Source: Bacteroidaceae bacterium
Lineage (GTDB): Bacteria; Bacteroidota; Bacteroidia; Bacteroidales; Bacteroidaceae
Length of the DNA stretch: 40,883 bases
NCBI GenBank assembly: GCA_017642425.1
Contig: JAGCPB010000037.1
Location: forward strand, 1 to 40,883
Direction: 5' to 3'
Each line of letters opens with the position of its first letter. The stretch's first letter is position 1. Under the pieces are notes generated by a model, which was not told where the DNA came from, did no database searches, and worked only from the letters and a program-made list of their open reading frames with translations. A program made the position numbers and the translations under genes. Below are positions 5,586 through 32,140 of the stretch, one piece after another.

Positions 5586-6661
5586 TTCTTAGAGTAATTA
5601 ATCATATTCTCCACAAACATACCGAACAGATTGCCTGTATCGGTAGGTCCGCTTGATGCCTCCGGATGAAACTGTGTCGAGAAGAAGGGTTTTGACTTGT
5701 GCTTTATACCCTCGTTCGTTCCGTCGTTAAGATTCTCGAACATACGCTCCCAGTCTGCGGGAAGCGTGCTGTCATCTATGGCAAAACCGTGGTTCTGCGA
5801 TGTCACAAAGCACTTATGGGTGCCGGGAATGCGTACTGTCTGGTTGTGTCCGCGGTGTCCGTACTTGAGTTTGTAGGTCTTTGCTCCTGCGGCAAGCGCC
5901 AGCAGCTGATTGCCCAGGCAGATACCCATGATGGGCCTGTCCTGCTGCAGAGCCTTGCGTATGTTTGCTATTGTCTCGGTGCACATGGCAGGGTCACCGG
6001 GGCCGTTTGATATGAACAGGCCGTCGTAATCCTCGCCGCTGAAATCATAGTTCCAGGGCACGCGCTTAATCTGTACGTTGTAGTCCAGCAGACAGCGCAG
6101 AATGTTGTTCTTCATGCCGCAATCCACCATCAGGACCTTATACTTACCATTTCCGTAGTGCTTTATCTCGGGGCACGACACCTGAGCCACCAGATTGTCC
6201 TTGTTGGGATCATAGAACGGTATATCTTCATCACCGAATACTATCTTGCCCAGCATGGCTCCTTTCTCGCGCAGACGCTTGGTTAGGGCTCTTGTATCAA
6301 TACCATAGATTCCGGGAACCTCCCATTTCTTGAGCCACTCGCCCAAACTCTTGGCGGAGTCCCAGTGGCTGTATTCGGCCGAATACTGTGCAATTACCAG
6401 TGCCGAGCACTGGATCCTGTCGGATTCGTAGAACTTTGATATTCCGTTTACTGTCTCGTCACCGGGCACTCCGTAGTTGCCTATCAGCGGGAATGTGGGG
6501 ACCAGGATCTGGCCTTTGTATGACGGGTCGCTCAAACTCTCCGGATAGCCCGTCATAGCCGTATAGAAGACAAGTTCGCCCGATACGGATTTCTCAAATC
6601 CGAACGAGCGACCTTTGTAACGGGTTCCGTCCTCAAGTATAAGAACTGCTTCTCTCTCCAT
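5582..6661 (-). CDS. carA: Carbamoyl-phosphate synthase, small (glutamine amidotransferase) subunit
   Basis: The 359-residue protein hydrolyses glutamine and passes ammonia to CarB. The N-terminal CPSase_sm domain (AVLILEDGTRYKGRSFGFEKS, then FYTAMTGYPE) fills about residues 1-150. A class I amidotransferase follows, with the nucleophile elbow MGICLGNQLLAL holding the catalytic Cys and the His/Glu pair in TQFHPEASSGPTDT near 335. The ATG at 6661 shares one base with the dapL stop (TAATG), and the stop overlaps carB, so dapL-carA-carB are almost certainly cotranscribed and translationally coupled. Confidence 0.97.
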   Translation of the reverse strand: MEREAVLILEDGTRYKGRSFGFEKSVSGELVFYTAMTGYPESLSDPSYKGQILVPTFPLIGNYGVPGDETVNGISKFYESDRIQCSALVIAQYSAEYSHWDSAKSLGEWLKKWEVPGIYGIDTRALTKRLREKGAMLGKIVFGDEDIPFYDPNKDNLVAQVSCPEIKHYGNGKYKVLMVDCGMKNNILRCLLDYNVQIKRVPWNYDFSGEDYDGLFISNGPGDPAMCTETIANIRKALQQDRPIMGICLGNQLLALAAGAKTYKLKYGHRGHNQTVRIPGTHKCFVTSQNHGFAIDDSTLPADWERMFENLNDGTNEGIKHKSKPFFSTQFHPEASSGPTDTGNLFGMFVENMINYSKK

Positions 6662-7863
6662 TATTTCTTCAACAAATTCTTTATTCTTTCCATTGCTTCA
6701 ATTGTACGCTGTCGGTCGGCAAATGAGGTTATACGGAAATATCCTTCACCTGCCGGGCCGAATCCGCTTCCTGGAGTTACCACAACCTGTGCCTTTTCAA
6801 GCAGAAGGTCAAATAACTCCCAGGAACTCATTCCGTTGGGAGTTTTGGCCCAGATGTAGGGGGCGTTTTCTCCTCCTTGCGGCTCCAGGCCTACTTCATC
6901 CATACTCTTTCTTATTATGCGAGCGGTCTCCAGATAGTAGTCTATAGTTGCCTTTGTCTCTGCACGTCCCTCCTCCGAGTAAACTGCAAGGGCTCCTTTC
7001 TGGGAGATATATGAGGCACCGTTGAACTTACAGCTTTGACGGCGCTCCCACATGGCATTCAGGTTGGCCTTTCCGCCCTTTCCATCTGACACCATAAGTT
7101 CCTGTGGGATAACGGCATAACCGCATCTTACTCCAGTAAATCCTGCCGTCTTTGAGAAGCTGCGGAACTCTATTGCGCAGTTCCTTGCTCCCTCAATCTC
7201 GTAGATTGAATGGGGTATCTGCGGGTCGCATATGAATGCTTCGTAGGCCGAATCGTACATGATCAGAGCACCGTTCTGCAGGGCCCAATCAACCCACTGT
7301 TTCAGCTTGCTGCGGGTTATTACGGCACCGGTGGGATTATTCGGGTAGCAAAGATACACAACATCGAACTTTTCCTTTGGGATATCGCCCGTAAATCCGT
7401 TCCCGGCATTACAGGTTATGTATTTTATCTCATTGCCGCGCATCAGGTTGGTATCCACATATACCGGATATACCGGGTCTGTAATACCTATAAGCGACCC
7501 GGGAGTAAGGATATCACCTATATTGCCCGTGTCGCTTTTGGCTCCGTCATTAATGAAAATGTCATCGGGGTTCATCTGTACCCCCAGCGGTGCGTAATCA
7601 CCTTTCACTATGGCCTCCCTTAGCCAGAGATAGCCACGCTCGGGGCCGTAGCCGTGAAAGGTCTCCGGTGCAGCACAGTCATCTACGGCCTGGTGCATCG
7701 CCTTGATTACGGCAGGAGCCAGCGGACGTGTAACGTCACCTATTCCCATACGGATTATATCGGCCTGGGGATGGGCCTCGCTGTAAGCCGCTACCCTCTT
7801 GGCGATATCCAGAAACAGATATCTCTCTGGCAGACGGCTAAAGTTTATGTTTGCTTGTGGCAT
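6661..7863 (-). CDS. dapL: LL-diaminopimelate aminotransferase
   Basis: This 400-residue fold-type I PLP enzyme converts tetrahydrodipicolinate to LL-diaminopimelate in one step with glutamate as amino donor, bypassing the succinylase and acetylase routes. Diagnostic features are the N-terminus with INFSRLPERYLF, the IRMGIGDVTRPL block, YPNNPTGA for cofactor binding, and SFSKTAGFTGVRCGYAVIP containing the Schiff-base lysine (SKT). The DapL-type N-terminus separates it from generic aspartate aminotransferases. It lies 5 bases downstream of dapF, the next enzyme of the pathway. Its placement after gltBD fits its glutamate demand. Confidence 0.95.
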   Translation of the reverse strand: MPQANINFSRLPERYLFLDIAKRVAAYSEAHPQADIIRMGIGDVTRPLAPAVIKAMHQAVDDCAAPETFHGYGPERGYLWLREAIVKGDYAPLGVQMNPDDIFINDGAKSDTGNIGDILTPGSLIGITDPVYPVYVDTNLMRGNEIKYITCNAGNGFTGDIPKEKFDVVYLCYPNNPTGAVITRSKLKQWVDWALQNGALIMYDSAYEAFICDPQIPHSIYEIEGARNCAIEFRSFSKTAGFTGVRCGYAVIPQELMVSDGKGGKANLNAMWERRQSCKFNGASYISQKGALAVYSEEGRAETKATIDYYLETARIIRKSMDEVGLEPQGGENAPYIWAKTPNGMSSWELFDLLLEKAQVVVTPGSGFGPAGEGYFRITSFADRQRTIEAMERIKNLLKK

Positions 7864-7868
7864 ATATA

Positions 7869-8708
7869 TCAGATTTCTATCTTTCCTTCATAAACCAGGT
7901 TGGCATCGCCGGTCATAAGGACCTCCTTGGTATCTGGGTCCCATGATACGGTGAGCGCTCCGCCATCCATAATCACCTCACAACCAGTAGGATCGGTGTA
8001 TCCCTGCATGGCCGATGCCACCGCCGTTGCGCAGGCACCCGTACCGCAGGCGCAGGTAATGCCGCTTCCGCGCTCCCAAACGCGCATACGTATATGATTG
8101 CGGTCCAGAACCTGTGCAAACTCTATGTTTGCGCGGTTGGGGAACATGGGGTTACGCTCCATAAGCGGACCCACACTGGCCACCGGGGCCTTCTCGGCAT
8201 TCTTTACGAACATGACCAGATGAGGATTGCCCATATTTATTGCGGTGCATACGGTAGGACCTTCACCCACATTCAGAGTCTCACCAACCAGCGTTCCGGC
8301 TCCGTGCTTTACATTGAGCGGAACTCCTGCGCCCATACCTACGGTCACGGACTCAATCCTGCCGTCAGCACCTGGATGTAGAGACAGTTTCTTTATACCT
8401 GAAAGTGTCTCTAAAGTGATTTCAGTCTTGGTGGTTAATCCCTTATCATACACATACTTACCAACACAGCGCGAACCATTTCCGCACATCATTGCCTCGG
8501 ACCCGTCGGCGTTGAAGATACGCATGCTGAAATCAGCTTTCTGCGAGCGTCCTATCAGGATAATGCCGTCAGAACCGATGCCTTTGTGGCGGTCACTCCA
8601 CAGTATGGATAGCTTATCGGGATTGGGCAAAACGGTATCCATGACATTGACATAGATATAGTCATTGCCCAGACCGTGCATCTTGCTGAATTCCACTACT
8701 CTACCCAT
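7869..8708 (-). CDS. dapF: Diaminopimelate epimerase
   Basis: The 279-residue cofactor-independent epimerase converts LL- to meso-diaminopimelate for lysine and peptidoglycan. Both catalytic cysteines sit in their standard contexts: [13 protein letters not shown] near residues 73-85 and [18 protein letters not shown] near 215-235. The N-terminus contains [15 protein letters not shown], which is typical, so the start at 8708 is well supported. The gene begins 3 bases after the gltD stop and ends 5 bases before dapL. Confidence 0.96.
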
Positions 8709-8711
8709 CGT

Positions 8712-10058
8712 TTATTTGCTCTTTAGGTATGCGTCAACCTTTGCTGCAGTCTCGCGTCCGCTAGCCAAAGCCCTTACCACCAGGCTGGCACCGTTCTTGG
8801 CGTCACCGGCCAGGAAAACGTTCTCAGCGTACTGCGGATGCTCGGGCTTGAGGAATCCCATAGCCAGCAGCACCATATCGCACTCTATTATCTCCTTGTT
8901 GCCTGTAGGTTTCATCTGCGGGCGGCCACCGTTAGGATCCGGTACCCACTCCACCGTCTCAACCTCAACGCCCTTAAGGTTGCCCTTGCCGTCATCAAGG
9001 AACTTGTTTGACGTAAGGCACCAGCGGCGCTCGCAACCCTCCTCATGACTGGTTGTGGTCTTAAGTATGTTAGGCCACTGCGGCCACGGTGTTGCAGGGT
9101 TATAGCCGATAGGCGGCTTAGGCATGATCTCAATCTGTGTGACGCTCTTGGCACCCTGACGATGGCATGTTCCTATACAGTCGCTGCCAGTATCACCGCC
9201 GCCAATCACAAGTACCTTCTTGCCCTTGGCCGATACGGTCTCCTCAGGGCTAAACTGTAATCCGGCCAGACGCAGATTCTGCTGTGTAAGCATCTGCAGG
9301 GCAAAATATACGCCCTTAAGCTCACGTCCCGGAATCTTGAGGTCACGTGCGGTAGGTGTTCCGTTTGATATGATATATGCGTCAAAGCCCTCGGGCAGTT
9401 TGTTCAAATCAACCGTTGTGTTGAACTTGAACTTTATCCCCTCCTGCTCCATGATCTCCATTCGGCGGTCAATCACATACTTGTTCAGCTTGAAGTTAGG
9501 TATTCCGTAACGTACCAGACCACCGGCCGACGGCATCTTGTCAAACAAAGTCACCTCATAACCCAGGCAGTTGAGCCTTACTGAGGCACTCAGTCCGGCA
9601 GGACCTGCACCAATAATGGCCACCTTCTTGCCGTTACGCTCATATGTCTGTGGCTTTACGTAACCCTCACGGAAAGCATGCTCTATGATTGAGCACTCGT
9701 TCTCACGTATGGTTACGGGAGCGTCAATGCAAAGATTCAGCGCGCAACTCTTCTCGCACAGAGCCGGGCAGATACGACCCGTAAACTCAGGGAAGTCATT
9801 GGTTGCGGTAAGCAGCTTGTATGCCAGCTCCCACTTGCCTTTGTAGACGGCATCCTGCCATTCGGGCTGCTTGTTGCCCAGCGGGCAGGCCCAGTGACAG
9901 AACGGTACGCCGCAGTCCATGCAGCGTGAAGCCTGCAACTGGCGGCTGCTGTCGTTAAGGGTCTGTTCCACCTCACCAAAGTCAGCTACTCTCTCACGTA
10001 TAGGTCTATGACCGGCTTCCTGTCTAGGTACGGTCAGGAAAGCTCTTGGATTTCCCAT
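8712..10058 (-). CDS. gltD: Glutamate synthase (NADPH), small subunit
   Basis: The 448-residue flavoprotein transfers electrons from NADPH through FAD and Fe-S centres to GltB. The N-terminal cysteine cluster (CMDCGVPFCHWACPLGN, later RICPALCEKSCALNLC) binds [4Fe-4S]. GAGPAGLSASVRL near 150 is the FAD Rossmann motif and VIGGGDTGSDCIGT near 285 is the NADPH-binding motif. The C-terminus has FLAGDAKNGASLVVRALASG, the closing FAD motif. Length and order match GltD. It lies 19 bases after gltB with no promoter between them. Confidence 0.96.
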   Translation of the reverse strand: MGNPRAFLTVPRQEAGHRPIRERVADFGEVEQTLNDSSRQLQASRCMDCGVPFCHWACPLGNKQPEWQDAVYKGKWELAYKLLTATNDFPEFTGRICPALCEKSCALNLCIDAPVTIRENECSIIEHAFREGYVKPQTYERNGKKVAIIGAGPAGLSASVRLNCLGYEVTLFDKMPSAGGLVRYGIPNFKLNKYVIDRRMEIMEQEGIKFKFNTTVDLNKLPEGFDAYIISNGTPTARDLKIPGRELKGVYFALQMLTQQNLRLAGLQFSPEETVSAKGKKVLVIGGGDTGSDCIGTCHRQGAKSVTQIEIMPKPPIGYNPATPWPQWPNILKTTTSHEEGCERRWCLTSNKFLDDGKGNLKGVEVETVEWVPDPNGGRPQMKPTGNKEIIECDMVLLAMGFLKPEHPQYAENVFLAGDAKNGASLVVRALASGRETAAKVDAYLKSK

Positions 10059-10077
10059 AGTAGTGTCTCTTTAGAAT

Positions 10078-13000
10078 TTAATAATCACGCTGAACGTTGT
10101 CAATCTTCTGCTGCAGCGCCTTCATCTTCTCCTCCTGAAGTATGCGGCGATACTCGATAGGAGTTACCTGGATGAACTCACCCACATAGTGTTCCCAGTC
10201 ATCAAGCATGCGCTTGGCAAGCGGAGAACCTGTGTATTTGTAGTGCTTCTCTATCAATCCTCGCAACTCGTCACGACCAGCCTTGTCCTCAATCAGGTCA
10301 AGCTCAATCATATCCATGTTGCAGTAGTAGTCAAAGTCATGGTTCTTGTCCCAGACGTATGCCAGGCCACCCGACATACCGGCTGCAAAGTTCCTGCCTG
10401 TAGTACCAAGCACAACCACGCGGCCGCCTGTCATATACTCGCAGCAGTGGTCTCCTGCGCCCTCCACTACGGCAATGGCACCGGAGTTACGCACCGCAAA
10501 ACGCTCACCTGCGCGTCCGTTTATGAATATCTCACCGCTTGTGGCACCATACAGTATCGTATTACCTGCAATGATATTTTCCGATGGCTCATAAGTGGTC
10601 TCCTTGGGCGGGCATATTGCAATGCGGCCACCTGAAAGACCCTTGCCTACATAGTCATTGGCCTCACCCTCCAGCTTAAAGCTAACGCCCTTCATAAGGA
10701 AAGCACCGAAGCTCTGTCCGGCCGAACCCTTGAACTTGACGTCAATTGTTCCGTCAGCCAGGCCGTCATGCCCGTACTTGCTTGCAATTGTACCAGAAAG
10801 CATAGCACCAACTGCACGGTCAGTGTTGATTATGTCGTATTCAAGTTTAACCTTACCTATCTTCTCTATAGCCTGGGCAGACTTTCTGATAATATTCTGG
10901 TCAATCACCTGGCTCAAGTCATGCTGCTGGTCCTCAACTTTACGCAGATCACCGTCAATCTTGGTGAGCATGCGGCTAAAGTCAAGACCGTTGGTCTTCT
11001 CGTTGAACTTGGCTGTATCAATCTCAATAAGGTCCGTACGGCCTATGATATCCTCAAACTTACGGAATCCCATATCGGCCAGGAACTCACGTACGCCCTC
11101 AGCCATATACATGTAGTAGTTGATAAGATACTGGCTGTGTCCGCGGAACTTGGCCCTCAGAGCCGGATCCTGCGTGGCAACACCTACAGGGCAGGCGTTT
11201 GTATGGCACTTACGCATCAGCAGGCAACCCAGAACGATAAGCTGAGCAGTTCCGAATCCAAACTCGCCTGCACCCAGCAGAGCCATCGATATCACGTCAC
11301 GCGGGGTCTTGAGCTGACCGTCCACCTGAACCTCTATCTCCTTGCGCAGACCGTTCAGAACCAGAGTCTGCTGAGTCTCGCTCAGACCGATCTCGGGCGA
11401 AATGCCTGCATAACGGATTGATGATGCGGGTGATGCGCCTGTACCGCCCTCAGAACCGGATATAACCACCAGGTCTGCCTTGGCCTTGGCCACACCGGCT
11501 GCGATGGTACCTACGCCGCTCTCGGCCACCAGCTTGACACTGATCTTGGCCTTGGGGTTCACGTTGCGCAAGTCAAATATAAGCTGTGCCAGATCCTCGA
11601 TAGAATAGATATCGTGATGAGGCGGAGGTGATATCAATGAAATTCCGGGAATTGAGTTACGTGTACGGGCAATGATCTCGTTCACCTTGAATCCCGGCAG
11701 CTGACCGCCCTCACCGGGTTTTGCGCCCTGGGCAATCTTAATCTGAATCTCCATTGCGTTGACCAGATACTCGGCTGTGACACCGAATCGGCCCGATGCC
11801 ACCTGCTTGATGCGGCTGCTCAGCGATACGCCGTCCACATCCTCGTGGAAACGGGTGCTGTCCTCACCTCCCTCACCGGTATTGCTGCGTGAATCAAGAG
11901 TATTCAGTGCAATTGCTATAGCCTCATGAGCCTCCTTGCTTATGGCGCCGAATGACATTGCGGCACCTATAAAGCGCTTCACAATGTTCTCGGCGGGCTC
12001 AACCTCATCAATTGAAATGGGGTTGCTCTTGAACTTGAAGAAGTTACGCAGGAACAGCTGCTCCGGACGGTCATCCACAATTGAGCAGAACTCCTTGAAC
12101 TTCTTGTAACTGCCCAGACGTGTTGCCAACTGCAGAGTTGAAATAGCTTCGGGAGTCCATGCGTGACGTATTCCGTCCTTACGGAAAGCATACTGGCCTA
12201 TGAACGGCAGCACGCTGTCTGGCTCGGCCTTACCGAATCCCTGCTCCTGCAGGCGTACGGCATCACGGCATATGCCATCAAATCCCACACCGCCTACGGT
12301 TGATGAGGCTGTACCGAAGTACTTGGCCAGAACCTCCTGGCTGACACCTATGGACTCGAATATCTTGGCACCGCGATAAGAACGTATGGTGCTGATACCC
12401 ATCTTGCTGAGTATCTTCTTAAGGCCCTTGTCAACGGCCTTGATGTAGTTGTGCTGGGCGGTCTCGTAGTCAAGCTGGATCTCGCCCTTCTTTACAAGGT
12501 CATCTATGACTGCAAACGCCATATAGGGGTTCACGGCACTTGCGCCGTAGCCCATAAGCAGAGCCACATGCATAACCTCACGGATCTCGCCGCTCTCAAC
12601 AATCAGAGCAGTCTGCACGCGCTTCTGGATAGATACCAGATAGTGGTGAATGGCGCTTACGGCCAGAAGTGAAGGTATTGCGGCATGAGTATCGTCAATT
12701 CCGCGGTCACTCAGTATTATGTAGTTGATACCTGCATCGACAGACTTTTCGGCCTCCTTGCAAAGGTTCTGAATAGCTTCGGCCATACCCTTGGCTCCCT
12801 TTGATTTCTCAAACAGGATAGGCAGAACCTCTGTGTTAAAGCCCTTGTAGCGGATATTGCACAGGGTATCAAGCTCTGTATTGGTAAGAACCGGCTGCGG
12901 CAGACGTACCATCTTGCAATGCTCGCCGCTGGGGGTAAGGATGTTCATGCCAACTGCGCCGATATATTCGGTCAGAGACATGACAAGCTCCTCACGTATG

Positions 13001-14544
13001 GGGTCAATAGGCGGGTTTGTAACCTGAGCAAACTGCTGACGGAAATAGTTGAACAGCAACTGCGGACGGTCAGACAGAACCGCAAGCTGTGTATCGTTAC
13101 CCATTGATGACAGAGGCTCCTGGGCCGTCTGGCACATAGGCACGATTATGCGGTCAATATCCTCACGTGTATAGTCAAACGCCCTTAAACGGCGTGTATA
13201 GTCCTTAATATCATTGGGTGCCTTACGGCCGCTCTTGAGCTTACCCAGCTCAACACGGCCTGCGCTGAGCCACTCGCCGTAGCTGTACTCGCTGGCCAGA
13301 GCATCCTTAACCTCATCATTACGGAATATCTGACCGTTATCTGTATCAATAAGCAGAATCTTACCGGGCTGAAGCTTACCCTTCTCAACAATGCTGGCGG
13401 CATCCACATGGATGCAACCGGCCTCGGATGCCATAATCAGCATACCCTCCTTTGTTATAAGGTAACGGGCGGGACGCAGACCGTTACGGTCCAGCATACC
13501 TCCGGCGTATCGGCCATCGGTAAAGAGCATTGCGGCAGGACCGTCCCACGGCTCCATGAGTATGGAATGATACTCATAGAACGCCTTGAGCTTGTCACTG
13601 ATGGGGTTTTTCTCATTGAAAGACTCAGGGATCATCATGGCCATAGCGTGCGGCAGCGACATACCGGAGCGAACAAAGAACTCCAGCACATTGTCAAATG
13701 ATGCACTGTCGCTCATATTGGGCTGAACAATGGGATGTATCTCCGATACATTACCAAGTGCCTCCGATGAGAGCACGCTCTCACGTGCCTCCATCCAGCC
13801 GCGGTTACCGCGAATGGTGTTGATCTCGCCGTTGTGTGCCAGCATTCTGAACGGCTGGGCAAGTGACCATGTAGGGAATGTGTTGGTACTGAATCGGGAA
13901 TGAACCATTGCAATGCCGCTCGTAAAGAACGGACTGCTCAGGTCCGGATAGTACTCACGCAACTGGGTTGACGTAAGCATTCCCTTATAGACCATAATAC
14001 GACTTGACAGTGAAACAATGTAGAAATCCTTGTTGTCAATACGTTTCTCCACATGCTTGCGGATCTTGTAGAGAGTAGTTTCCAGACCCTCAATCTCGGC
14101 TGCTCCTGTCACGAATATCTGCATGGTGCAGGGCTCGGTAGCCTTTGCCGCATCACCCAGGATATTGCTGTTTACGGGAACGTCACGTGTATTTGACAAC
14201 TGCAGGCCCATTCTCTCGGTCTCCTCACGGATGATACCAAGATACTGCTCACGCAGCTCTTTGTCCTGCGGCAGGAACACCAGTCCTGTGCCGTAGTGCA
14301 GACGCTCGGGAACGGGAATTCCCTGCAGCAGAATGAACTCGTGCGGTATCTGGACCATGATTCCGGCTCCGTCACCACTCTTGTTGTCGGCAGCCTCGGC
14401 TCCACGGTGCTTCATATTCTCAAGCAGCGTCAAGGCCTCGTCCACAAGCTGGTGCGTCTTGTTTCCCTTCAGATTGACCATCATGCCTATTCCGCAGGCA
14501 TCATGCTCGTTCTGAGGATCGTATAATCCCTGTGTCTTAATCAT
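10078..14544 (-). CDS. gltB: Glutamate synthase, large subunit
   Basis: The 1488-residue GOGAT alpha subunit turns glutamine and 2-oxoglutarate into two glutamates. Domains in order: class II (Ntn) amidotransferase with the nucleophile Cys17 in HDACGIGMM, exposed after loss of a 16-residue propeptide; a central domain from about residue 450; the FMN synthase domain with PPPHHDIYSIEDLAQLI and the 3Fe-4S binding CLLMRKCHTNACPVGV near 1110-1130; and the C-terminal right-handed beta-helix domain (GXGXG) with GGRIAICPP and TGGRVVVLG. An 87-base spacer separates it from glnN. No TAnnTTTG box is visible there, so it is probably read from the glnN or asnB promoter. Confidence 0.97.
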   Translation of the reverse strand: MIKTQGLYDPQNEHDACGIGMMVNLKGNKTHQLVDEALTLLENMKHRGAEAADNKSGDGAGIMVQIPHEFILLQGIPVPERLHYGTGLVFLPQDKELREQYLGIIREETERMGLQLSNTRDVPVNSNILGDAAKATEPCTMQIFVTGAAEIEGLETTLYKIRKHVEKRIDNKDFYIVSLSSRIMVYKGMLTSTQLREYYPDLSSPFFTSGIAMVHSRFSTNTFPTWSLAQPFRMLAHNGEINTIRGNRGWMEARESVLSSEALGNVSEIHPIVQPNMSDSASFDNVLEFFVRSGMSLPHAMAMMIPESFNEKNPISDKLKAFYEYHSILMEPWDGPAAMLFTDGRYAGGMLDRNGLRPARYLITKEGMLIMASEAGCIHVDAASIVEKGKLQPGKILLIDTDNGQIFRNDEVKDALASEYSYGEWLSAGRVELGKLKSGRKAPNDIKDYTRRLRAFDYTREDIDRIIVPMCQTAQEPLSSMGNDTQLAVLSDRPQLLFNYFRQQFAQVTNPPIDPIREELVMSLTEYIGAVGMNILTPSGEHCKMVRLPQPVLTNTELDTLCNIRYKGFNTEVLPILFEKSKGAKGMAEAIQNLCKEAEKSVDAGINYIILSDRGIDDTHAAIPSLLAVSAIHHYLVSIQKRVQTALIVESGEIREVMHVALLMGYGASAVNPYMAFAVIDDLVKKGEIQLDYETAQHNYIKAVDKGLKKILSKMGISTIRSYRGAKIFESIGVSQEVLAKYFGTASSTVGGVGFDGICRDAVRLQEQGFGKAEPDSVLPFIGQYAFRKDGIRHAWTPEAISTLQLATRLGSYKKFKEFCSIVDDRPEQLFLRNFFKFKSNPISIDEVEPAENIVKRFIGAAMSFGAISKEAHEAIAIALNTLDSRSNTGEGGEDSTRFHEDVDGVSLSSRIKQVASGRFGVTAEYLVNAMEIQIKIAQGAKPGEGGQLPGFKVNEIIARTRNSIPGISLISPPPHHDIYSIEDLAQLIFDLRNVNPKAKISVKLVAESGVGTIAAGVAKAKADLVVISGSEGGTGASPASSIRYAGISPEIGLSETQQTLVLNGLRKEIEVQVDGQLKTPRDVISMALLGAGEFGFGTAQLIVLGCLLMRKCHTNACPVGVATQDPALRAKFRGHSQYLINYYMYMAEGVREFLADMGFRKFEDIIGRTDLIEIDTAKFNEKTNGLDFSRMLTKIDGDLRKVEDQQHDLSQVIDQNIIRKSAQAIEKIGKVKLEYDIINTDRAVGAMLSGTIASKYGHDGLADGTIDVKFKGSAGQSFGAFLMKGVSFKLEGEANDYVGKGLSGGRIAICPPKETTYEPSENIIAGNTILYGATSGEIFINGRAGERFAVRNSGAIAVVEGAGDHCCEYMTGGRVVVLGTTGRNFAAGMSGGLAYVWDKNHDFDYYCNMDMIELDLIEDKAGRDELRGLIEKHYKYTGSPLAKRMLDDWEHYVGEFIQVTPIEYRRILQEEKMKALQQKIDNVQRDY

Positions 14545-14587
14545 TGGAACTTATTTAAGGTATTACAACTTCTAAAAATCTCATTAA

Positions 14588-14618
14588 ACAGATCACCCCC
14601 ACTTTGGGGATGACCTGT
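14588..14618 (-). terminator. Strong intercistronic hairpin between glnN and gltB
   Basis: On the minus strand ACAGGTCATCCCC and GGGGGTGATCTGT form a 13-bp stem around a 5-base loop. The only two non-Watson-Crick pairs are G-U on the minus-strand RNA and would be A-C mismatches on the plus strand, so selection appears to act on the minus transcript. It is followed by TTTAATGAGATTTTTAG, a broken U-tract. It may be a partial terminator or an mRNA-stabilising barrier that sets the glnN:gltB ratio. Confidence 0.6.
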
Positions 14619-14631
14619 AAGAACTGTCAGA

Positions 14632-16818
14632 TTAGTTTATAAAGAGCAGCTCACGATACTTCGGCAGCGGCCACATATCGTTGTCAACCACCTCCTCAAG
14701 TTTATCGATGGTCTTGCGGAGCGGGAAGAGGCTCTCGGCAATCTCGTGGTAAGCAAGTGCCTTCTCATACTCACCCTCAATCTTGTTGGCAGCCTTGCGG
14801 GCGTTGACCATATCGTCAACCTGACCCTTCAGTTTATTGACAAGATCTGATATCTTGGTCACAAATCCCATGCTCACTGCAGCCATATCCTTATAGCTGT
14901 CACCATAGACCTGCTTCATAAGCTCTATGTTCTTGAGCAGCTTGGTCTGATAGTCAAGAGCGGCGGGAATGATATGGTTCAGAGCCATACGTCCGGTTAC
15001 GCGGGCTTCAATCTGTACCTTCTTGGTATATATCTCCCACTTAACCTCGTTACGGGCCTCAAGCTCCTTCTCACTGTAAACACCCAGCTTGGTGAACAGC
15101 TCGATAGCCTTGGGAGTGGTGAATGACTTGAACATCTCAGGAACGTTGGTGCTGGTATCCAAACCGCGTTTCTTGGCCTCGGCCTTCCACTCATCGGTAT
15201 AACCGTTACCGTCAAAGCAAACAACATCGATAATGCTCTTGATGATAGGCTTCAGGGTATCCATGATGGCAATGTTCATGGCCTTGCCCGATGCAATCTC
15301 CTTATCCACAGCTGCCTTGAAAGCAATCAGCTGCTCGGCAACGGCTGCGTTCAGGGTGGTCATTGCGCCAGCGCAGTTTGCGCTTGAACCAACGGCACGG
15401 AACTCAAAGCGGTTACCGGTGAATGCAAACGGTGATGTACGGTTACGGTCGGTGTTATCCACGAATATCTCAGGAATCTCAACCAGACCTACTGACTTAC
15501 CCTTCTTGCCGGCAATCTCGATAGGAGTATCTGACGGAACCTCAAGCAGTTTCTTGAGCACTGCAGTCATTGTGCGGCCCAGGAATGCAGATACGATTGC
15601 AGGAGGTGCCTCGTTGGCGCCCAGACGGTGAGCGTTGGTTGCGGTTGCGATAGAAGCCTTCAGTATATCGTTGTGCTTCTGTACGGCAGCCAGAACGTTT
15701 ACAAAGAATGTAACGAACTGCAGGTTACCCATAGAGTCCTTACCGGGAGCAAGCAGAAGTGTGCCTGTATCGGTACCCAGTGACCAGTTGTTGTGCTTAC
15801 CTGAACCGTTGATGCCGTCAAACGGCTTCTCGTGGAACAGAACCACAAATCCGTGCTTACGGGCGATGCTGTTCATCACGTTCATCATCTGCTGGTTCTG
15901 ATCGTTTGAAAGGTTGGTCTCACCGTAGATGGGAGCAAGCTCAAACTGGTTGGGAGCAACCTCATTATGACGAGTCTTAAGAGGAATACCAAGCTTGTAA
16001 CCGGCAATCTCAATGTCGCGCATGAAAGCAGCCACACGTGAAGGGATGGCACCAAAGTAGTGATCATCCAGCTGCTGGTTCTTTGACGATGCGTGACCCA
16101 TCAGTGTGCGGCCTGTAAGCATCAGGTCAGGACGGGCAGCGTAGAGGTCCTCATCAACCAGGAAATACTCCTGCTCCCAACCCAGGTATGAATATACCTT
16201 CTTAACCTTGGGATCAAACATCTGGCAGATAGGTACTGCAGCATCGCTGACAGCCTTAAGGGCCTTCTTAAGAGGAGTCTTGTAGTCAAGAGCCTCACCG
16301 GTATATGAAATGAATACGGTAGGTATGCAGAGAGTGTCATCCTGTATGAACACAGGTGATGTGGGATCCCATGCTGTGTAACCGCGGGCCTCAAATGTGG
16401 CACGGATACCGCCGCTTGGGAATGATGATGCGTCAGGCTCCTGCTGTGCCAGGGCTTTGCCATCGAAAGTCTCTATCATACCGCCCTTGCCGTCATACTC
16501 CATGAATGAGTCGTGCTTTTCGGCAGTACCGTCAGTAAGAGGCTGGAACCAGTGTGTAACGTGTGTTACGCCGTGCTCCATAGCCCAGGTCTTCATGCCT
16601 GCGGCAACACCGTCAGCAGTCTTGCGGTCCAGAGGTTCGCCATTGTCGATGCAGTTCACAATAGCCTTGAAAGTAGCGTCATCAAGATACTTGCGCATCT
16701 TGTCACGGTTGAACACCAACTCACCGAAATACTCCGATGTCTTCTTGGCGGGTGCCTCTACTACAGCAGCCTTCTTCTTGAAAGCATCCTGTATCACATC
16801 AAATCTTAGTTCACTCAT
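14632..16818 (-). CDS. glnN: Glutamine synthetase type III (GSIII)
   Basis: With the start at 16818 (MSELRFDVIQDAF) the protein has 728 residues, the normal size for the dodecameric GSIII class typical of Bacteroidota and cyanobacteria. It condenses glutamate and ammonia with ATP. Visible GSIII blocks are SGGIRATFEARGYTAWDPTS, the EQEYFLVD metal-binding strand, HNEVAPNQFELAPIY, NGSGKHNNWSLGTDTG in the nucleotide site, and NRTSPFAFTGNRFEFRAVGS near the C-terminal half. A 16-residue upstream extension is in frame, but it lacks family similarity and approaches the -7 box, so the shorter start is preferred. It sits between asnB and gltB, making a GS/GOGAT unit. A second, type I-like synthetase is encoded at 24379. 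Confidence 0.96.
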   Translation of the reverse strand: MSELRFDVIQDAFKKKAAVVEAPAKKTSEYFGELVFNRDKMRKYLDDATFKAIVNCIDNGEPLDRKTADGVAAGMKTWAMEHGVTHVTHWFQPLTDGTAEKHDSFMEYDGKGGMIETFDGKALAQQEPDASSFPSGGIRATFEARGYTAWDPTSPVFIQDDTLCIPTVFISYTGEALDYKTPLKKALKAVSDAAVPICQMFDPKVKKVYSYLGWEQEYFLVDEDLYAARPDLMLTGRTLMGHASSKNQQLDDHYFGAIPSRVAAFMRDIEIAGYKLGIPLKTRHNEVAPNQFELAPIYGETNLSNDQNQQMMNVMNSIARKHGFVVLFHEKPFDGINGSGKHNNWSLGTDTGTLLLAPGKDSMGNLQFVTFFVNVLAAVQKHNDILKASIATATNAHRLGANEAPPAIVSAFLGRTMTAVLKKLLEVPSDTPIEIAGKKGKSVGLVEIPEIFVDNTDRNRTSPFAFTGNRFEFRAVGSSANCAGAMTTLNAAVAEQLIAFKAAVDKEIASGKAMNIAIMDTLKPIIKSIIDVVCFDGNGYTDEWKAEAKKRGLDTSTNVPEMFKSFTTPKAIELFTKLGVYSEKELEARNEVKWEIYTKKVQIEARVTGRMALNHIIPAALDYQTKLLKNIELMKQVYGDSYKDMAAVSMGFVTKISDLVNKLKGQVDDMVNARKAANKIEGEYEKALAYHEIAESLFPLRKTIDKLEEVVDNDMWPLPKYRELLFIN

Positions 16819-16863
16819 AATTGTATTGTTTTGTGGTTTTTGTTTGCGATATACAAAACGATG

Positions 16864-16871
16864 CAAAATTA
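16864..16871 (-). promoter_or_regulatory. -7 box for glnN
   Basis: TAATTTTG on the minus strand matches TAnnTTTG exactly, 45 bases before the glnN ATG. No convincing -33 TTTG lies at the right distance, which could mean an activator-dependent promoter. No terminator is visible in the 148-base asnB-glnN gap, so readthrough from asnB is also possible. Confidence 0.5.
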
Positions 16872-16966: not shown

Positions 16967-18661
16967 TTATTTATAAGCGTTTTCGTGTACGCCCTTTACT
17001 GCACGGCCGCTGGGATCGTTCAGTTTGCTGAAACTTGCATCCCATTTCAGAGCCTCGGCGGTAGAGCAAGCTACGCTTGGAACACTGGGAACACACTTGG
17101 CAGCCGATGCACTCGGGAAATGCTCCTCAAATATGCTACGGTAATAATACTCCTCCTTGTTCATAGGCGTGTTGATGGGGAACCTCTCGGCTGCATGAGC
17201 CATCTGCTCATCACTTATTGCAGCTGCGGTAATCTCCTTCAGGGAGTCAATCCAGCTGTAACCTACTCCGTCGCTGAACTGCTCTTTCTGACGCCATGCA
17301 ACGCTCTCCGGCAGCATATCGGCAAATGCCTCACGTACCACTCGTTTCTCGATGCTCTTACCCGGGCACATCTTGGCCTCAGGGTTCATGCGCATTGCAA
17401 CATCCAGGAAATCCTTGTCAAGGAACGGAACGCGACCCTCAACGCCCCAAGCTGCCAGTGACTTGTTGGCACGCAGACAGTCATAAAGGTGCAATTTTGA
17501 AAGCTTCCTGACAGTCTCCTCGTGGAATGCCTCAGCGTCGGGGGCCTTGTGGAAGTAGAGATAACCTCCAAACACCTCATCGGCCCCCTCGCCGCTCAGC
17601 ACCATCTTGATTCCCATGCTACGTATAACTCGGGCAAGCAGGTACATGGGAGTGCTGGCACGTACCGTGGTAACGTCATAAGTCTCAATGAAGTAGATCA
17701 CGTCACGTATGGCATCCAGTCCCTCCTGGACTGTATAGTTGATTTCATGGTGTACTGTACCAATGTGGTCGGCAACCTCGCGGGCCTTAGCCAGATCCGG
17801 AGCACCCTTAAGACCCACTGCAAACGAGTGCAGACGCGGCCACCAGGCCTCCTGCTGGTCATCGGTCTCAACACGGCGGGCAGCGTTTTTCTTTGCTATG
17901 GCCGATATCACCGAACTGTCCAGACCGCCGGAGAGCAGCACTCCGTAAGGAACATCGCACATAAGCTGACGCTTTACTGCTGCCTCAAGGGCATCGTGCA
18001 GTTCCTTTATATCGGCCTTGTTATCCTTCACTGCCTCATACTTGAACCAGTCACGGGTGTACCAGCGCTCAATATGTCCGCTGCGGCTGCTCAGGAAATG
18101 TCCGGGCAGGAACGGCTCATACTCAGTGCAGATACCCTCCAGAGCCTTGAGCTCGCTGGCCACACAGATATGCCCCTGGGCATCCTTACCAATATAAAGA
18201 GGTATAACACCTATCGGGTCACGGGCCACCAGATACTCATCACGCTCTGCATCATAAAGCGCAAAGGCAAAAATACCGTTCAGGCGCTCCAGCATGCGGA
18301 TAAAATCCTCCTGGCTTCCACCTGCCCTGACGGCATCGCGGTAAAGCGCCAGAATAACCTCACAGTCACTGCCGGTACTGAACGTGTATCGGCCAGCGTA
18401 CTCACGGCGTATAGCCTGATGGTTGTAAATCTCACCGTTAACGGCCAGCACCTGCAGACGGTCCTCACTGAACAGCGGCTGACCACCAGATTGGGGATCC
18501 ACAATACTCAAACGCTCATGAGCCAGAATGGCAGAGCCTCCGCACCAGATACCGCTCCAATCGGGACCGCGATGACGTATCCTACGGCTCATTTCAAGCG
18601 CCTGATGGCGCAACTGCTCTGACTGCTCCTTAATCCTGAAGATTGAAACTATTCCACACAT
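16967..18661 (-). CDS. asnB: Asparagine synthetase B (glutamine-hydrolysing)
   Basis: The 564-residue enzyme makes asparagine from aspartate, glutamine and ATP. MCGIVSIF gives the N-terminal Cys2 nucleophile of the Ntn amidotransferase domain (about 1-190), with RHRGPDWSG and VNGEIYNHQ following. The synthetase half has the PP-loop LLSGGLDSSVISAIA near 235 and the conserved LSGEGADEVFGGYLYFHKAP and EGRVPFLDKDFL blocks. All catalytic landmarks are present. It is preceded by a 230-base leader with an Asn/Gln-rich short ORF and an intrinsic terminator, which strongly suggests attenuation control by Asn and/or Gln tRNA charging. It heads the minus-strand nitrogen run. Confidence 0.97.
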   Translation of the reverse strand: MCGIVSIFRIKEQSEQLRHQALEMSRRIRHRGPDWSGIWCGGSAILAHERLSIVDPQSGGQPLFSEDRLQVLAVNGEIYNHQAIRREYAGRYTFSTGSDCEVILALYRDAVRAGGSQEDFIRMLERLNGIFAFALYDAERDEYLVARDPIGVIPLYIGKDAQGHICVASELKALEGICTEYEPFLPGHFLSSRSGHIERWYTRDWFKYEAVKDNKADIKELHDALEAAVKRQLMCDVPYGVLLSGGLDSSVISAIAKKNAARRVETDDQQEAWWPRLHSFAVGLKGAPDLAKAREVADHIGTVHHEINYTVQEGLDAIRDVIYFIETYDVTTVRASTPMYLLARVIRSMGIKMVLSGEGADEVFGGYLYFHKAPDAEAFHEETVRKLSKLHLYDCLRANKSLAAWGVEGRVPFLDKDFLDVAMRMNPEAKMCPGKSIEKRVVREAFADMLPESVAWRQKEQFSDGVGYSWIDSLKEITAAAISDEQMAHAAERFPINTPMNKEEYYYRSIFEEHFPSASAAKCVPSVPSVACSTAEALKWDASFSKLNDPSGRAVKGVHENAYK

Positions 18662-18703: not shown

Positions 18704-18736
18704 AAAAAAAAGACTGATCAAATTGACCAGTCTTTT
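18704..18736 (-). terminator. Attenuator terminator in the asnB leader
   Basis: AAAAGACTGGTCA (18724-18736) pairs with TGATCAGTCTTTT (18708-18720) through 13 bp with one G-U and a 3-base loop, and runs into eight U residues (18704-18711). It lies between the leader ORF and the asnB start, 43 bases ahead of the ATG, so it can only act as a premature terminator of asnB itself. The same hairpin occurs at 31743-31776 ahead of glnK. Confidence 0.9.
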
Positions 18737-18797
18737 ATGTTTTGTTCTTTATATACCCTGAATGATTAGCTTTCCCGCTGGCCAAAAGAAGTAACCA
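18708..18797 (-). promoter_or_regulatory. Mutually exclusive pairing segments of the asnB attenuator
   Basis: Segment 1 (TGGTT, 18793-18797) can pair with GGCCA, part of segment 2, leaving a 9-base loop. Segment 2 (TTGGCCAG, 18778-18785) can instead pair over 8 bp, one of them G-U, with CTGGTCAA (18723-18730) in the 5' arm of the terminator. Segment 1 begins 7 bases after the last Gln codon of the leader, so a ribosome stalled in the Asn/Gln run would cover it and free segment 2 to block the terminator. A ribosome at the leader stop would cover segment 2. The pairings are read by eye; energies were not computed. Confidence 0.7.
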
Positions 18798-18873
18798 TCC
18801 GAACCTGATTATTCTGGTTCTGATTCTGGTTATTCTGATTATTATTGGCGGTGTAAGCCAAAACTTTAGCCAT
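18766..18873 (-). CDS. Asn/Gln-rich leader peptide of asnB (35 residues)
   Basis: The short ORF starts at ATG 18873 directly after AAGGAA and ends in TAA at 18766-18768. Residues 10-23 are NNNQNNQNQNQNNQ, fourteen consecutive Asn and Gln codons (AAT/AAC and CAG only). They are followed by VRMVTSFGQRES. It lies between a canonical promoter and an intrinsic terminator. The ORF at 31806-31922 ahead of glnK has the same plan: the N/Q run, a V-x-M-V block, an F-[GD]-Q triplet and a final Ser-stop. This is what a leader peptide of a ribosome-mediated attenuator looks like, and no independent function is likely. Confidence 0.88.
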   Translation of the reverse strand: MAKVLAYTANNNQNNQNQNQNNQVRMVTSFGQRES

Positions 18874-18899
18874 TTCCTTGATTATGCTAATTACGAATG

Positions 18900-18931
18900 C
18901 AAAATTAAGCACTCTATTTGAAACCACCAAA
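18900..18931 (-). promoter_or_regulatory. Promoter of the asnB leader
   Basis: On the minus strand TTTG (18928-18931) is followed after exactly 20 bases by TAATTTTG (18900-18907). The -7 box sits in the context GTGCTTAATTTTGC, almost identical to GTGCTTATCTTTGC at the glnK leader. The start of transcription should be near 18893, about 20 bases before the leader ATG. Confidence 0.8.
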
Positions 18932-19036
18932 GCATTTGATAGAAAATTATCACTTTATCGTGAAATTTTTTGCTGCGCTTACATTTTGACACCTTTATAT
19001 ATAATACGCTTTCATTTTGTCAAACGCCCCACACTC

Positions 19037-19177
19037 GCCAAAGTGTCCCACGCTCACCCCACTCAGCAGCCTCACAAAGCACACTGCTGTGGGACACCCC
19101 CACCAAAACAGCCCCATGTCCCACGCTCACCCGCGTCATAACGCATTCTCACGCACATCACCGTGGGACACTTTGGC
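19037..19177. repeat. Cluster of GTCCCAC/GTGGGAC repeats with a 16-bp perfect inverted repeat
   Basis: GCCAAAGTGTCCCACG at 19037-19052 is repeated in perfect inverted orientation at 19162-19177. TGTCCCACGCTCACCC occurs as an exact direct repeat at 19044-19059 and 19117-19132, and an inverted core GTGGGACAC lies at 19089-19097. The segment is C-rich on the plus strand, unlike its surroundings, and has no gene. It precedes the helicase-nuclease gene. With the rest of 18932-19218 it fills a 290-base stretch holding no other recognisable element. Its role is unknown: possible operator array, recombination site or remnant of a small element. Confidence 0.75.
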
Positions 19178-19218
19178 AAAATAGCGCCACAAGTACCCTA
19201 CTTATTCAATGTTCTGAC

Positions 19219-19248
19219 TATATTTGCAAACGTGATGAGCAGCATCAC
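19219..19248 (+). promoter_or_regulatory. -7 box and downstream hairpin ahead of the helicase-nuclease gene
   Basis: TATATTTG at 19219-19226 is an exact TAnnTTTG. GTGATG (19232-19237) and CATCAC (19243-19248) form a 6-bp inverted repeat with a 5-base spacer at the expected transcription start. It could be an operator or a 5' mRNA hairpin. No good -33 box is seen. Confidence 0.55.
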
Positions 19249-30098: not shown

Positions 30099-31325
30099 TC
30101 AGATATTGTATGCAGTCTCTCCGTGCTCGTAGATATCCAGTCCCTCCTCCTCTACTCTAGGCTCAACGCGGATTCCGTGAACCTTCTTGAGTATTACAAA
30201 GGTGAGCAGACCCAATCCGAACGACCAGCTGATTGTAGCCAGTGAACCAAGAGCCTCAACGCCCAGGAAATGCCAGCCGCCACCGTAGAACAGGCCACCG
30301 TCAACGGCAAACATACCAGTCATGAGGGTACCCAGGATACCGCATGTTCCGTGAACCGATACAGCACCAACGGGATCATCAATCTTGCAGACCTTGTCAA
30401 TCAGAGCAACAGAGCCAACCATTGCTATACCGCATACGGCACCGATGATTGCCGCACCACCTATAGATACCAGGTCACAACCGGCTGTGATACCTACAAG
30501 ACCTGCCAGGATGCCGTTGCACACCAGCGAGAGTGAAGGTTTGCCGTAAACCAGCCAGGTAAGGAACAGGACCGATATACCGCCTGTTGCTGCAGCCATG
30601 TTGGTTGTGCACATCACGTGAGAGATTGCAATTGCGTTCTCAGCACCTTCGGCAGCCAGCTGTGAACCGGGGTTGAAACCAAACCAACCGAACCAGAGCA
30701 GAAATACACCCAGAGCACCGAATGTCAGGTTGTGACCGGGAATAGCGCGTGACTCACCTGTCTTTGAATACTTACCTATACGCGGACCCAGTACCATAGC
30801 ACCTGCAAGAGCAATGACACCACCGCAAGAGTGTACAACCGTTGAACCTGCAAAATCATGGAAACCAAGCTCTGACAGCCAGCCGCCACCCCAGGTCCAG
30901 TGACCCTCAATGGGATAGATGATTACTGAAATAATGATTGATATAAGAATGTACATTGAGAACTTGGTTCTCTCAGCCATACCGCCCGATACTATTGTGG
31001 CAGCAGTGGCGCAGAAAACGGTTTGGAAAATCAGCGTACACTCGGCCGGAACGTTGGTATCACCAAAGAACGACCAGTCAAAAAGATGAAGGCTTCCGAT
31101 GAAACCGTTGCCGCTTCCGTGCATCAGGCCGAATCCTATCATCCAGAACAGGAATGAACCGACCATGAAATCCACAAAGTTCTTCATAAGTATGTTGGCA
31201 GTGTTCTTGGATCGGGTAAAACCTGCCTCTACCAACGCAAAACCCGGTTGCATAAAGAACACAAGCATTGCTGCTATCAGTACCCATACGGTATCAAGTC
31301 CGCTAATTGTTGTAATGTCTTCCAT
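30099..31325 (-). CDS. amtB: Ammonium transporter
   Basis: The 408-residue Amt/Rh channel has about eleven membrane helices. The twin histidines are present in DFAGSTVVHSCGG and DPVGAVSVHGTCG, the Phe gate in FQTVFCATAATIVSG, and the recruitment-site Trp in HWTWGGGWL. It moves ammonium across the inner membrane and is inhibited by GlnK when nitrogen is plentiful. It follows glnK after 27 bases, the standard glnK-amtB arrangement, and lies downstream of the Asn/Gln attenuator. Confidence 0.96.
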   Translation of the reverse strand: MEDITTISGLDTVWVLIAAMLVFFMQPGFALVEAGFTRSKNTANILMKNFVDFMVGSFLFWMIGFGLMHGSGNGFIGSLHLFDWSFFGDTNVPAECTLIFQTVFCATAATIVSGGMAERTKFSMYILISIIISVIIYPIEGHWTWGGGWLSELGFHDFAGSTVVHSCGGVIALAGAMVLGPRIGKYSKTGESRAIPGHNLTFGALGVFLLWFGWFGFNPGSQLAAEGAENAIAISHVMCTTNMAAATGGISVLFLTWLVYGKPSLSLVCNGILAGLVGITAGCDLVSIGGAAIIGAVCGIAMVGSVALIDKVCKIDDPVGAVSVHGTCGILGTLMTGMFAVDGGLFYGGGWHFLGVEALGSLATISWSFGLGLLTFVILKKVHGIRVEPRVEEEGLDIYEHGETAYNI

Positions 31326-31352: not shown

Positions 31353-31700
31353 TTACTTCTTGTCTCTCAGTACGGTATCTCCGTGTTCTCCGGTACGGAT
31401 TGACCATGTGTCATCCACGGGACTCACGAATATTCGGCCGTCACCCACCTGACCGGTTCGGGCTGCACCCATAATGGCATCAATGGCGGGCTGTACAAAC
31501 TGGTCGCGGCAGATGATGGTTATCTCGATGCGTGAGATAATATCAGTACTGTACATTACGCCACGATAAATTCGGTCCTGACGGTCCTGTCCGATGGCAT
31601 GTACCTCTGCGTAAGAGAACCAGTTGATGTCGGCCTCAAAAAGTGCCTCCTTCACATCCTCAAACCGGGTTTTCCGGATGATTGCTTCAATTTTTTTCAT
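31353..31700 (-). CDS. glnK: PII-family nitrogen regulatory protein
   Basis: The 115-residue protein has the PII trimer fold signatures MKKIEAIIRK at the start and AARTGQVGDGRIFVSPVDDTWSIRTGEHGD near the end. The T-loop is IGQDRQDRIYRGVMYSTDII, one residue shorter than in E. coli GlnB. Tyr50 corresponds to the uridylylated Tyr51, but its context is YRGVMY and not YRGAEY, and the lysines equivalent to Lys58 and Lys90 are Arg. It probably controls AmtB according to 2-oxoglutarate and nucleotide levels; whether it is uridylylated is open. Confidence 0.93.
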   Translation of the reverse strand: MKKIEAIIRKTRFEDVKEALFEADINWFSYAEVHAIGQDRQDRIYRGVMYSTDIISRIEITIICRDQFVQPAIDAIMGAARTGQVGDGRIFVSPVDDTWSIRTGEHGDTVLRDKK

Positions 31701-31742: not shown

Positions 31743-31776
31743 AAAAAAAAGACTGATCAAATAATGACCAGTCTTT
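31743..31776 (-). terminator. Attenuator terminator in the glnK-amtB leader
   Basis: AAAGACTGGTCA (31765-31776) pairs with TGATCAGTCTTT (31748-31759) through 12 bp with one G-U and a 5-base loop, running into eight U residues (31743-31750). It stands between the leader ORF and glnK, 43 bases before the ATG. It is nearly identical to the asnB terminator although the loops differ. Confidence 0.9.
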
Positions 31777-31837
31777 ATATTGAATTCTCTATTTATCTAC
31801 GATGCTTAGCTTACCTGCTGGTCAAAAGGTATAACCA
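31748..31837 (-). promoter_or_regulatory. Mutually exclusive pairing segments of the glnK attenuator
   Basis: Segment 1 (TGGTT, 31833-31837) can pair with GACCA around a 9-base loop. Segment 2 (TGACCAG, 31818-31824) is exactly complementary to CTGGTCA (31765-31771), the inner half of the terminator 5' arm. Compared with the asnB leader, segment 2 differs by A versus G, yet it pairs with both partners in each leader. The loop length of 9 is the same. Energies were not computed. Confidence 0.7.
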
Positions 31838-31922
31838 TCGGAACCTGATTATTCTGGTTCTGATTCTGCTGCTGATTATTATTCAGCTGAACAGTGGTTA
31901 TATTGTTAAGACCGATAAACAT
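31806..31922 (-). CDS. Asn/Gln-rich leader peptide of glnK-amtB (38 residues)
   Basis: ATG 31922 opens MFIGLNNITTVQL, then residues 14-26 are NNNQQQNQNQNNQ, thirteen consecutive Asn/Gln codons, then VPMVIPFDQQVS and TAA at 31806-31808. All Gln codons are CAG. The ORF has a -7 box 32 bases upstream and an intrinsic terminator 30 bases downstream. It shares plan and part of its sequence with the leader at 18766-18873, while the N-termini differ. That is expected if only the run and the pairing segments matter. Confidence 0.88.
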   Translation of the reverse strand: MFIGLNNITTVQLNNNQQQNQNQNNQVPMVIPFDQQVS

Positions 31923-31953
31923 AAAATCTGTCTGTTGTTTCTGATTTCTGCGG

Positions 31954-31961
31954 CAAAGATA
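31954..31961 (-). promoter_or_regulatory. -7 box of the glnK-amtB leader
   Basis: TATCTTTG is an exact TAnnTTTG on the minus strand, in the context GTGCTTATCTTTGC shared with the asnB leader promoter. The best TTTG upstream (31986-31989) is 24 bases away, longer than usual, so the -33 contact may be weak or activator-assisted. The rest of 31962-32102 shows no other element. Confidence 0.65.
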
Positions 31962-32140
31962 AGCACTATCTCAATACGTTGTTCTCAAAATGCGCAGAAA
32001 TTTTACTTTTTTCTATCAAATTTCCATAATTCCTGACATTTAGACAGCACATACGGCAAAAATAAAACATCTTGCCACAATTGCATATTTTGCAAACTAT
32101 CAGTAACTTTACAACCATTCAAATGGAAACCAACCTGAAT

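Follow-up and report, generated by a model that had tools for sequence, protein, structure and literature searches.

Asn/Gln codon-rich leaders ahead of glnK-amtB and asnB in a Bacteroidaceae genome: candidate ribosome-mediated attenuators of nitrogen-assimilation genes

Results

Two leaders with uninterrupted Asn/Gln codon runs

The window analysed here is a stretch of 40,883 nt from a Bacteroidaceae bacterium (GCA_017642425.1, contig JAGCPB010000037.1). Its minus strand encodes a PII protein (glnK, 31353..31700, PF00543) and an ammonium transporter (amtB, 30099..31325, PF00909), both identities being confirmed by Pfam. Ahead of these genes lie a 38-codon open reading frame (ORF, 31922..31806) and an intrinsic terminator (31776..31743), a 12-pair hairpin with T run that starts 29 nt past the leader stop. 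The predicted leader peptide, MFIGLNNITTVQLNNNQQQNQNQNNQVPMVIPFDQQVS (38 aa), contains 13 consecutive Asn or Gln (N/Q) residues, as the earlier note on this DNA had claimed; the corresponding codons 14–26 (31845..31883) are the presumed sensing codons. A hairpin in the run (GAACC...GGTTC, 31841..31860) holds its one AAC codon. Segment 2 (TGACCAG, 31818..31824), the putative 5' half of an antiterminator, is located inside the ORF just before the stop. It can pair with CTGGTCA of segment 3 (GACTGGTCA, 31765..31773), the 5' arm of the terminator, whose 3' arm is formed by segment 4 (TGATCAGTC and the T run, 31743..31759). Upstream, GTGCTTATCTTTGC (31953..31966) presumably represents a promoter element of the -7 type. 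The glnK leader folds with z = -5.4 and is more stable than all 200 shuffles. A 1469-aa frame with a signal-like start on the plus strand (window 32072–36481) reads away from the glnK leader and has no NCBIfam match.

The second leader precedes asnB (asparagine synthase, 16967..18661, PF00733), also on the minus strand. Its ORF (18873..18766) encodes 35 aa with 14 consecutive N/Q (codons at 18805–18846) and is accompanied by a presumed -7-type promoter element (GTGCTTAATTTTGC, 18899..18912), a segment 2 (TTGGCCAG, 18778..18785) and a terminator (18704..18732); the fold (z = -5.1) is likewise more stable than all 200 shuffles. Behind asnB, the same strand carries glnN, gltB, gltD, dapF, an aminotransferase gene, carA and carB (2349..16866), which are possibly co-transcribed with asnB; glnN is preceded by a -7-like box of its own. 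By eye, GTGTCCCAC/GTGGGACA-like motifs were seen to recur upstream of the asnB leader promoter (window 18995–19230).

Comparison of the two copies

The leader ORFs are 12.9 kb apart, in agreement with the second copy that had been reported at about 13 kb, and the terminators GACTGGTCATTATTTGATCAGTC and GACTGGTCAATTTGATCAGTC proved nearly identical, as stated before, with eight T after each. N/Q runs of at least five codons occur in the six frames of the window only in these two leaders, and the longest N/Q run in 60 dinucleotide shuffles of the window was 5, compared with 13–14 in the leaders. The earlier note had also listed a shared -7 context. The sequence GTGCTTAnnTTTGC is indeed found upstream of both ORFs, but we take it to contain an ordinary Bacteroidetes -7 element, so the shared context is generic, and its reading as a special element was rejected.

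When the two leader types of the same genome are compared (averaged over 5 genomes), identity is 80% from the N/Q run to the stop and 83% in the hairpin, versus 51% in the N-terminus, 51% in the spacer, 48% downstream and 55% upstream. The functional parts are thus kept between types while the flanks are not, as had been proposed. Within types across genomes (12-leader alignment), the corresponding values are 90% and 88% for the N/Q run to the stop and the hairpin, and 76%, 60% and 55% for the N-terminus, spacer and downstream region. Pairwise gaps in this alignment, in which pairs are not independent, are multiples of three in 100 of 100 cases inside the ORFs and in 57 of 318 outside. This pattern of identities and in-frame gaps argues that the copies are old, have been kept separately and are read as codons. 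A recent duplication without constraint, which the 81% identity of the copies over ~149 nt might suggest, is extremely improbable and was rejected: core identity is higher within type across genomes (0.90) than between types (0.80), the flanks are unlike, and more instances stand before pyrG and purF.

Asn codon choice in the N/Q runs looks structured. Across 43 runs, which include near-duplicates and one non-leader (L032_747), 57 of 317 Asn codons are AAC; 42 of these 57 are followed by a C and have GGTT further on, so that AACC and GGTT could form a helix, but AAT, too, is followed by a C in 101 cases.

Genes behind such leaders in the family

Run on 301 family genomes, a peptide-only profile built from 14 leaders gave 49 rows with E no higher than 0.1, distributed over 31 genomes. 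Of these, 43 are N/Q leader ORFs before genes and amount to 42 leaders, as one asnB leader (G230) is frame-broken and hence gives two rows; the other six (E 0.011–0.088) were judged non-leaders by frame length or absent terminator. All 42 leaders precede nitrogen or glutamine-amide genes, namely glnK (n = 21), a small exported protein gene followed by glnK-amtB (n = 4), asnB (n = 14), and purF-pyrG (G288), pyrG (G217) and glnN (G120) with one leader each. Downstream genes random with respect to nitrogen metabolism, the outcome that the earlier note had named as contradicting its proposal, were therefore not what the listing returned. The expected asnB, glnK-amtB and glnN are all represented, and the gene set is wider than proposed in that it extends to purF and pyrG and, by operon, to carAB and guaA. 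A loose scan detected a terminator behind 41 of the 42 leaders; the miss (G081) has a broken T run. In G120, the genes glnN-carA-carB-guaA follow the leader together with a frame resembling CTP synthase, and glnN has a second hairpin ahead of it.

Genomes of group g22 have a single leader before (exported protein)-glnK-amtB-asnB, with glnN next in G228. In the window's genus the glnK-amtB/asnB cluster is split and each piece has its own leader; 7 of 21 genomes of this genus are leaderless, and GlnK and AsnB matches are missing from all seven. The designation 'TorF porin' for the small exported protein was dropped because Pfam Gcw_chp scored below cut-off in one of two proteins tested and was absent in the other; no NCBIfam match was obtained for any of three tested.

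Some family members deviate in single features. One genome (L003/L121, G024) has an intact leader, behind which the glnK frame is interrupted and the next amtB-like start runs into other sequence. In L150 (G230), the N/Q frame of the leader before asnB is broken after NNNQNNQNQNQ, via assembly error or decay. G161 and G243 carry a second leader with terminator, rich in Asn and almost devoid of Gln (NPKRNAGNNNSGNWNRF), between asnB and glnN (L141 3350–3490, L144 3563–3703), a position at which the window has no leader.

Taxonomic distribution

The leader system is restricted to a few lineages of Bacteroidales. Among 80 named glnK loci, a leader lies ahead of glnK in four (L030, L031, L033, L050) and ahead of the exported-protein gene in one (L032); L030 carries a second one before asnB. 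No such leader was seen upstream of glnK in the remaining 75 loci (two with <500 nt upstream), and none lies within 500 nt upstream of glnK in L034–L049 and L051–L060, mostly Prevotella/Prevotellaceae by title. G048 has glnK and asnB without leader. In 393 order genomes, few of them from the window's family, clear leaders are confined to the window's own genome, G527 and G667, with three additional weak rows, and the peptide model recovered from 296 phylum genomes only the window's own leaders and three weak rows (E 0.005–0.009). G527 and G667 belong to another family and have three leaders per genome, in which Asn is mixed with Lys, Arg and Ser and which precede glnN-gltB, exported protein-glnK-amtB, and a second Amt gene followed by asnB. 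In the search among Bacteroidales that the earlier note had proposed, the leaders are thus not order-wide.

A covariance model gave matches in 331 of the 393 order genomes, mostly generic terminators, so this tally is no count of leaders. Twenty-three of the 24 full-length matches listed outside the family were inspected; six of them, three from G527 and three from G667, proved to be leaders and 17 did not. DNA BLAST against 151 genomes found close relatives, with 12 strong rows (E 1e-24 or better), and its short matches led in some cases to distant glnK leaders (L011–L013, L016) and in others were promoter fragments (L009, L010). The GlnK of L032, a MAG labelled Salinivirgaceae, is 90% identical to that of the window, and many Prevotella-titled glnK loci are near 70%. 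This pattern hints that the cluster has been exchanged by gene transfer; the leaders found there differ considerably.

Terminator and antiterminator pairing

Pairing was assessed in an alignment of 28 leaders, hand-chosen from 57 candidates without near-duplicates and non-leaders, with the L132 row truncated past its first terminator. The terminator helix is paired in 98.6% of cells and has 47 both-side changes. Its paired cells, both-side changes and covariation score were each reached by none of 500 shuffles; the number of pairs with a both-side change was reached by 52 of 500 and the number of pair types by all 500. The antiterminator core CC[AG]G:C[UC]GG, between the ORF end and the 5' arm of the terminator, pairs in 28 of 28 leaders, with CC[AG]G just after the stop and not inside the ORF in L011. 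Both sides of the core have changed in three of the 28 rows (purF leader, L033, L050). Over the nine pairs of the antiterminator helix, pairing amounts to 77.0% of cells versus 75.9% in shuffles (77.0% was reached by 92/500), and the covariation score of the whole helix is not above shuffles in the 28 leaders, so covariation is no proof of this helix. Sliding the antiterminator partner lowers pairing to 8–39%, and 13 of the 28 leaders, taken one by one, have a duplex better than that of shuffled tails at p < 0.05. A leader's own arms pair longer than swapped ones (mean 7.1 vs 6.6), a value reached in 33 of 10000 permutations and, with 14 representatives, in 129 of 20000. The last N/Q codon lies 15–34 nt (median 26) before segment 2, which itself is located -8 to 20 nt (median 13) from the stop; as analysed, this spacing and layout appears to fit attenuation of the trp/his type.

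An ORF that is kept in frame could also encode a functional Asn/Gln-rich small protein, with the hairpin as the ordinary terminator of a small transcript. This is very improbable and was rejected, as N-termini and lengths vary, Asn and Gln swap freely within the run, and the ORF-end nucleotides match the terminator arm in all 28 leaders.

Amino acids predicted to be sensed

GlnRS scored over the cut-off in all ten genomes tested and AsnRS in nine, with a partial match in G278, and GatB was found in none of these ten genomes and in 12 of 14 control genomes. Such direct charging of tRNA-Gln and tRNA-Asn means that the leader would read free Gln and Asn. Since Asn is present in all 28 aligned leaders and Gln is scarce or absent in some (0–2 residues in four), Asn is possibly the more general signal. 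This distribution is also what would be expected of an attenuator with one amide as the true signal, Asn being read and Gln codons tolerated, or the reverse, and the leader before the second Amt gene and asnB of G527/G667 has many Asn and no Gln. We consider a single amide rather unlikely, given that Gln makes up about half of the run in the window's copies and Gln runs are kept across genera.

Proposed switch and footprint model

Taken together, the leader is very probably a ribosome-mediated transcription attenuator that is read through Asn and Gln codons. We infer its translation, termination, kinetics and amino-acid response from its parts, their conservation, complementarity and spacing, and the downstream genes. 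With Asn-tRNA and Gln-tRNA well charged, the ribosome would reach the stop and cover segment 2, segments 3 and 4 would form the terminator, and glnK-amtB would be off. If charging falls, the ribosome would stall in the N/Q run, stalls on the last codons being the most useful, and leave segment 2 free to pair with segment 3; the terminator would then come too late and the polymerase would read into glnK-amtB. The asnB copy would work likewise for asnB and perhaps for the genes behind it. Nitrogen-assimilation genes are thus probably switched on by Asn/Gln shortage via the ribosome itself, and ammonium uptake and PII signalling would be tied to free Gln and Asn. Such nitrogen control would act by translation and not by a transcription factor; promoter-level control may operate as well.

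With the last three N/Q codons in the A site, a simple footprint model gives values of 0.97–0.99 (glnK) and 0.64–0.91 (asnB) for the pairing of segments 2 and 3 before segment 4 exists; this pairing is still high for the next three codons and drops to ≤0.02 from codon 30 (glnK) or 27 (asnB). Modelled without ribosome it is 0.00 or 0.21, and stalls earlier in the run give 0.10–0.85 (glnK) and 0.01–0.71 (asnB). Stalls at codons 1–3 of the glnK leader also favour this pairing (0.96–0.98), and the N/Q codons are therefore not distinguished by the model. Once segment 4 is present, the terminator always wins at equilibrium in the model, and the switch must therefore be assumed to be kinetic.

Because segment 2 is also set free in the model when the ribosome stalls at several codons other than N/Q, a leader that senses general slowing of translation, like antibiotic-sensing leaders, instead of Asn/Gln was weighed. 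It is improbable, as N/Q enrichment is retained while N-termini change and nitrogen genes follow every one of the 42 leaders.

Discussion

Relation to known regulatory RNAs

Ribosome-mediated attenuators combine a short ORF, in which codons for the end product of the operon are frequent, with an alternative pairing, and the position of the ribosome acts as the switch. The runs of 13 and 14 N/Q codons match this scheme, in that asnB makes Asn and glnN makes Gln. The codon-rich short ORF and the intrinsic terminator are features in common with the trp, his, thr, leu, ilv and phe attenuators; an alternative pairing of the ORF end with the 5' arm of the terminator and a switch by ribosome position, as in those attenuators, are predicted here. 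Unlike in the attenuators of amino-acid operons (reviewed in PMC2965389), two codons, Asn and Gln, are combined in one uninterrupted run, the genes concerned are those for PII, ammonium transport and amidotransferases, and copies stand on several operons per genome.

No Rfam family, including Thr_leader, Phe_leader, Bacteroid-trp and T-box, matches the window or 10 leader loci at or above gathering score. Sub-threshold matches at E up to 1 comprise two for the glnK leader (L20_leader, Thr_leader) and seven for the asnB leader (including Thr_leader and Phe_leader). The Bacteroid-trp RNA is a Trp leader. It was presented as a cis-regulatory candidate of Bacteroidetes (RF01692; Weinberg 2010). 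The cyanobacterial glutamine riboswitches glnA and Downstream-peptide are aptamer RNAs and not leader ORFs. A 5' UTR that acts as a metabolite riboswitch or as a protein-binding leader would account for the strong folds (z -5.4 and -5.1) and is nevertheless hardly credible; this reading was rejected because glnA and Downstream-peptide, too, are among the families without a match at gathering score in the window and the 10 leader loci, and the alignment has no consensus structure outside the terminator.

Leader-peptide attenuation has been suspected in Bacteroidetes (PMC7366714, PMC9723704); the accessible parts of these papers mention BT_4401 and operons of amino-acid biosynthesis, but neither Asn/Gln leaders nor glnK-amtB. 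Neither an Asn/Gln leader peptide nor a glnK-amtB attenuator was found in titles and abstracts of the literature searched, which covers few subscription journals. The attenuation class is known, and its amide specificity and the PII/ammonium/amidotransferase gene set have, as far as we have seen, not been described.

A possible amide regulon

Nitrogen regulation in this phylum departs from the enteric paradigm, according to the available text of Kim 2017 (PMC5552732). A leader that couples PII and ammonium uptake to Asn/Gln charging would supply a concrete and easily tested answer in one group of lineages, of which several come from rumen metagenomes. Leader-peptide attenuation would thereby reach the amide amino acids as well as an operon that combines transport with signalling, and the sequence signature of the leader would allow the nitrogen regulon of uncultured relatives to be read off their genomes. 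A broader reading, which we advance tentatively and with the balance somewhat against it, is that the ribosome senses the cell's nitrogen status in these Bacteroidales, that a multi-operon amide regulon takes its main input from the charging of tRNA-Asn and tRNA-Gln, in the role that NtrC, GlnR/TnrA or NtcA play in other bacteria, and that the pieces of a split cluster gained or kept copies of the attenuator. Such a regulon would comprise PII, ammonium transport, the exported protein, AsnB, GSIII, GOGAT, PurF, PyrG and, by operon, CarAB and GuaA, and the cluster that was split would be the ancestral-looking exported protein-glnK-amtB-asnB-glnN.

Published expression data from Prevotella ruminicola 23 concern the same gene set as that behind the leaders here. 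In the available text, amtB (69-fold), PRU_1977 (58-fold), glnK (46-fold), asnB (38-fold), glnN-2 (35-fold) and gltBD are among the most changed genes (Kim 2017, PMC5552732). These genes are higher on ammonium than on peptides (PMC5552732), which is what the attenuator predicts if peptides supply amides. In the comparison of excess with limiting ammonium, this text is contradictory as to direction, higher expression in excess being supported by the figure legend, the enzyme data and the discussion (PMC5552732); higher expression in excess ammonium is not predicted by a simple starvation switch. Given both directions and the mostly Prevotella glnK loci without N/Q leader upstream, the P. ruminicola expression is no proof of the attenuator. 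The strongly changed PRU_1977 may correspond to the exported protein met before glnK-amtB.
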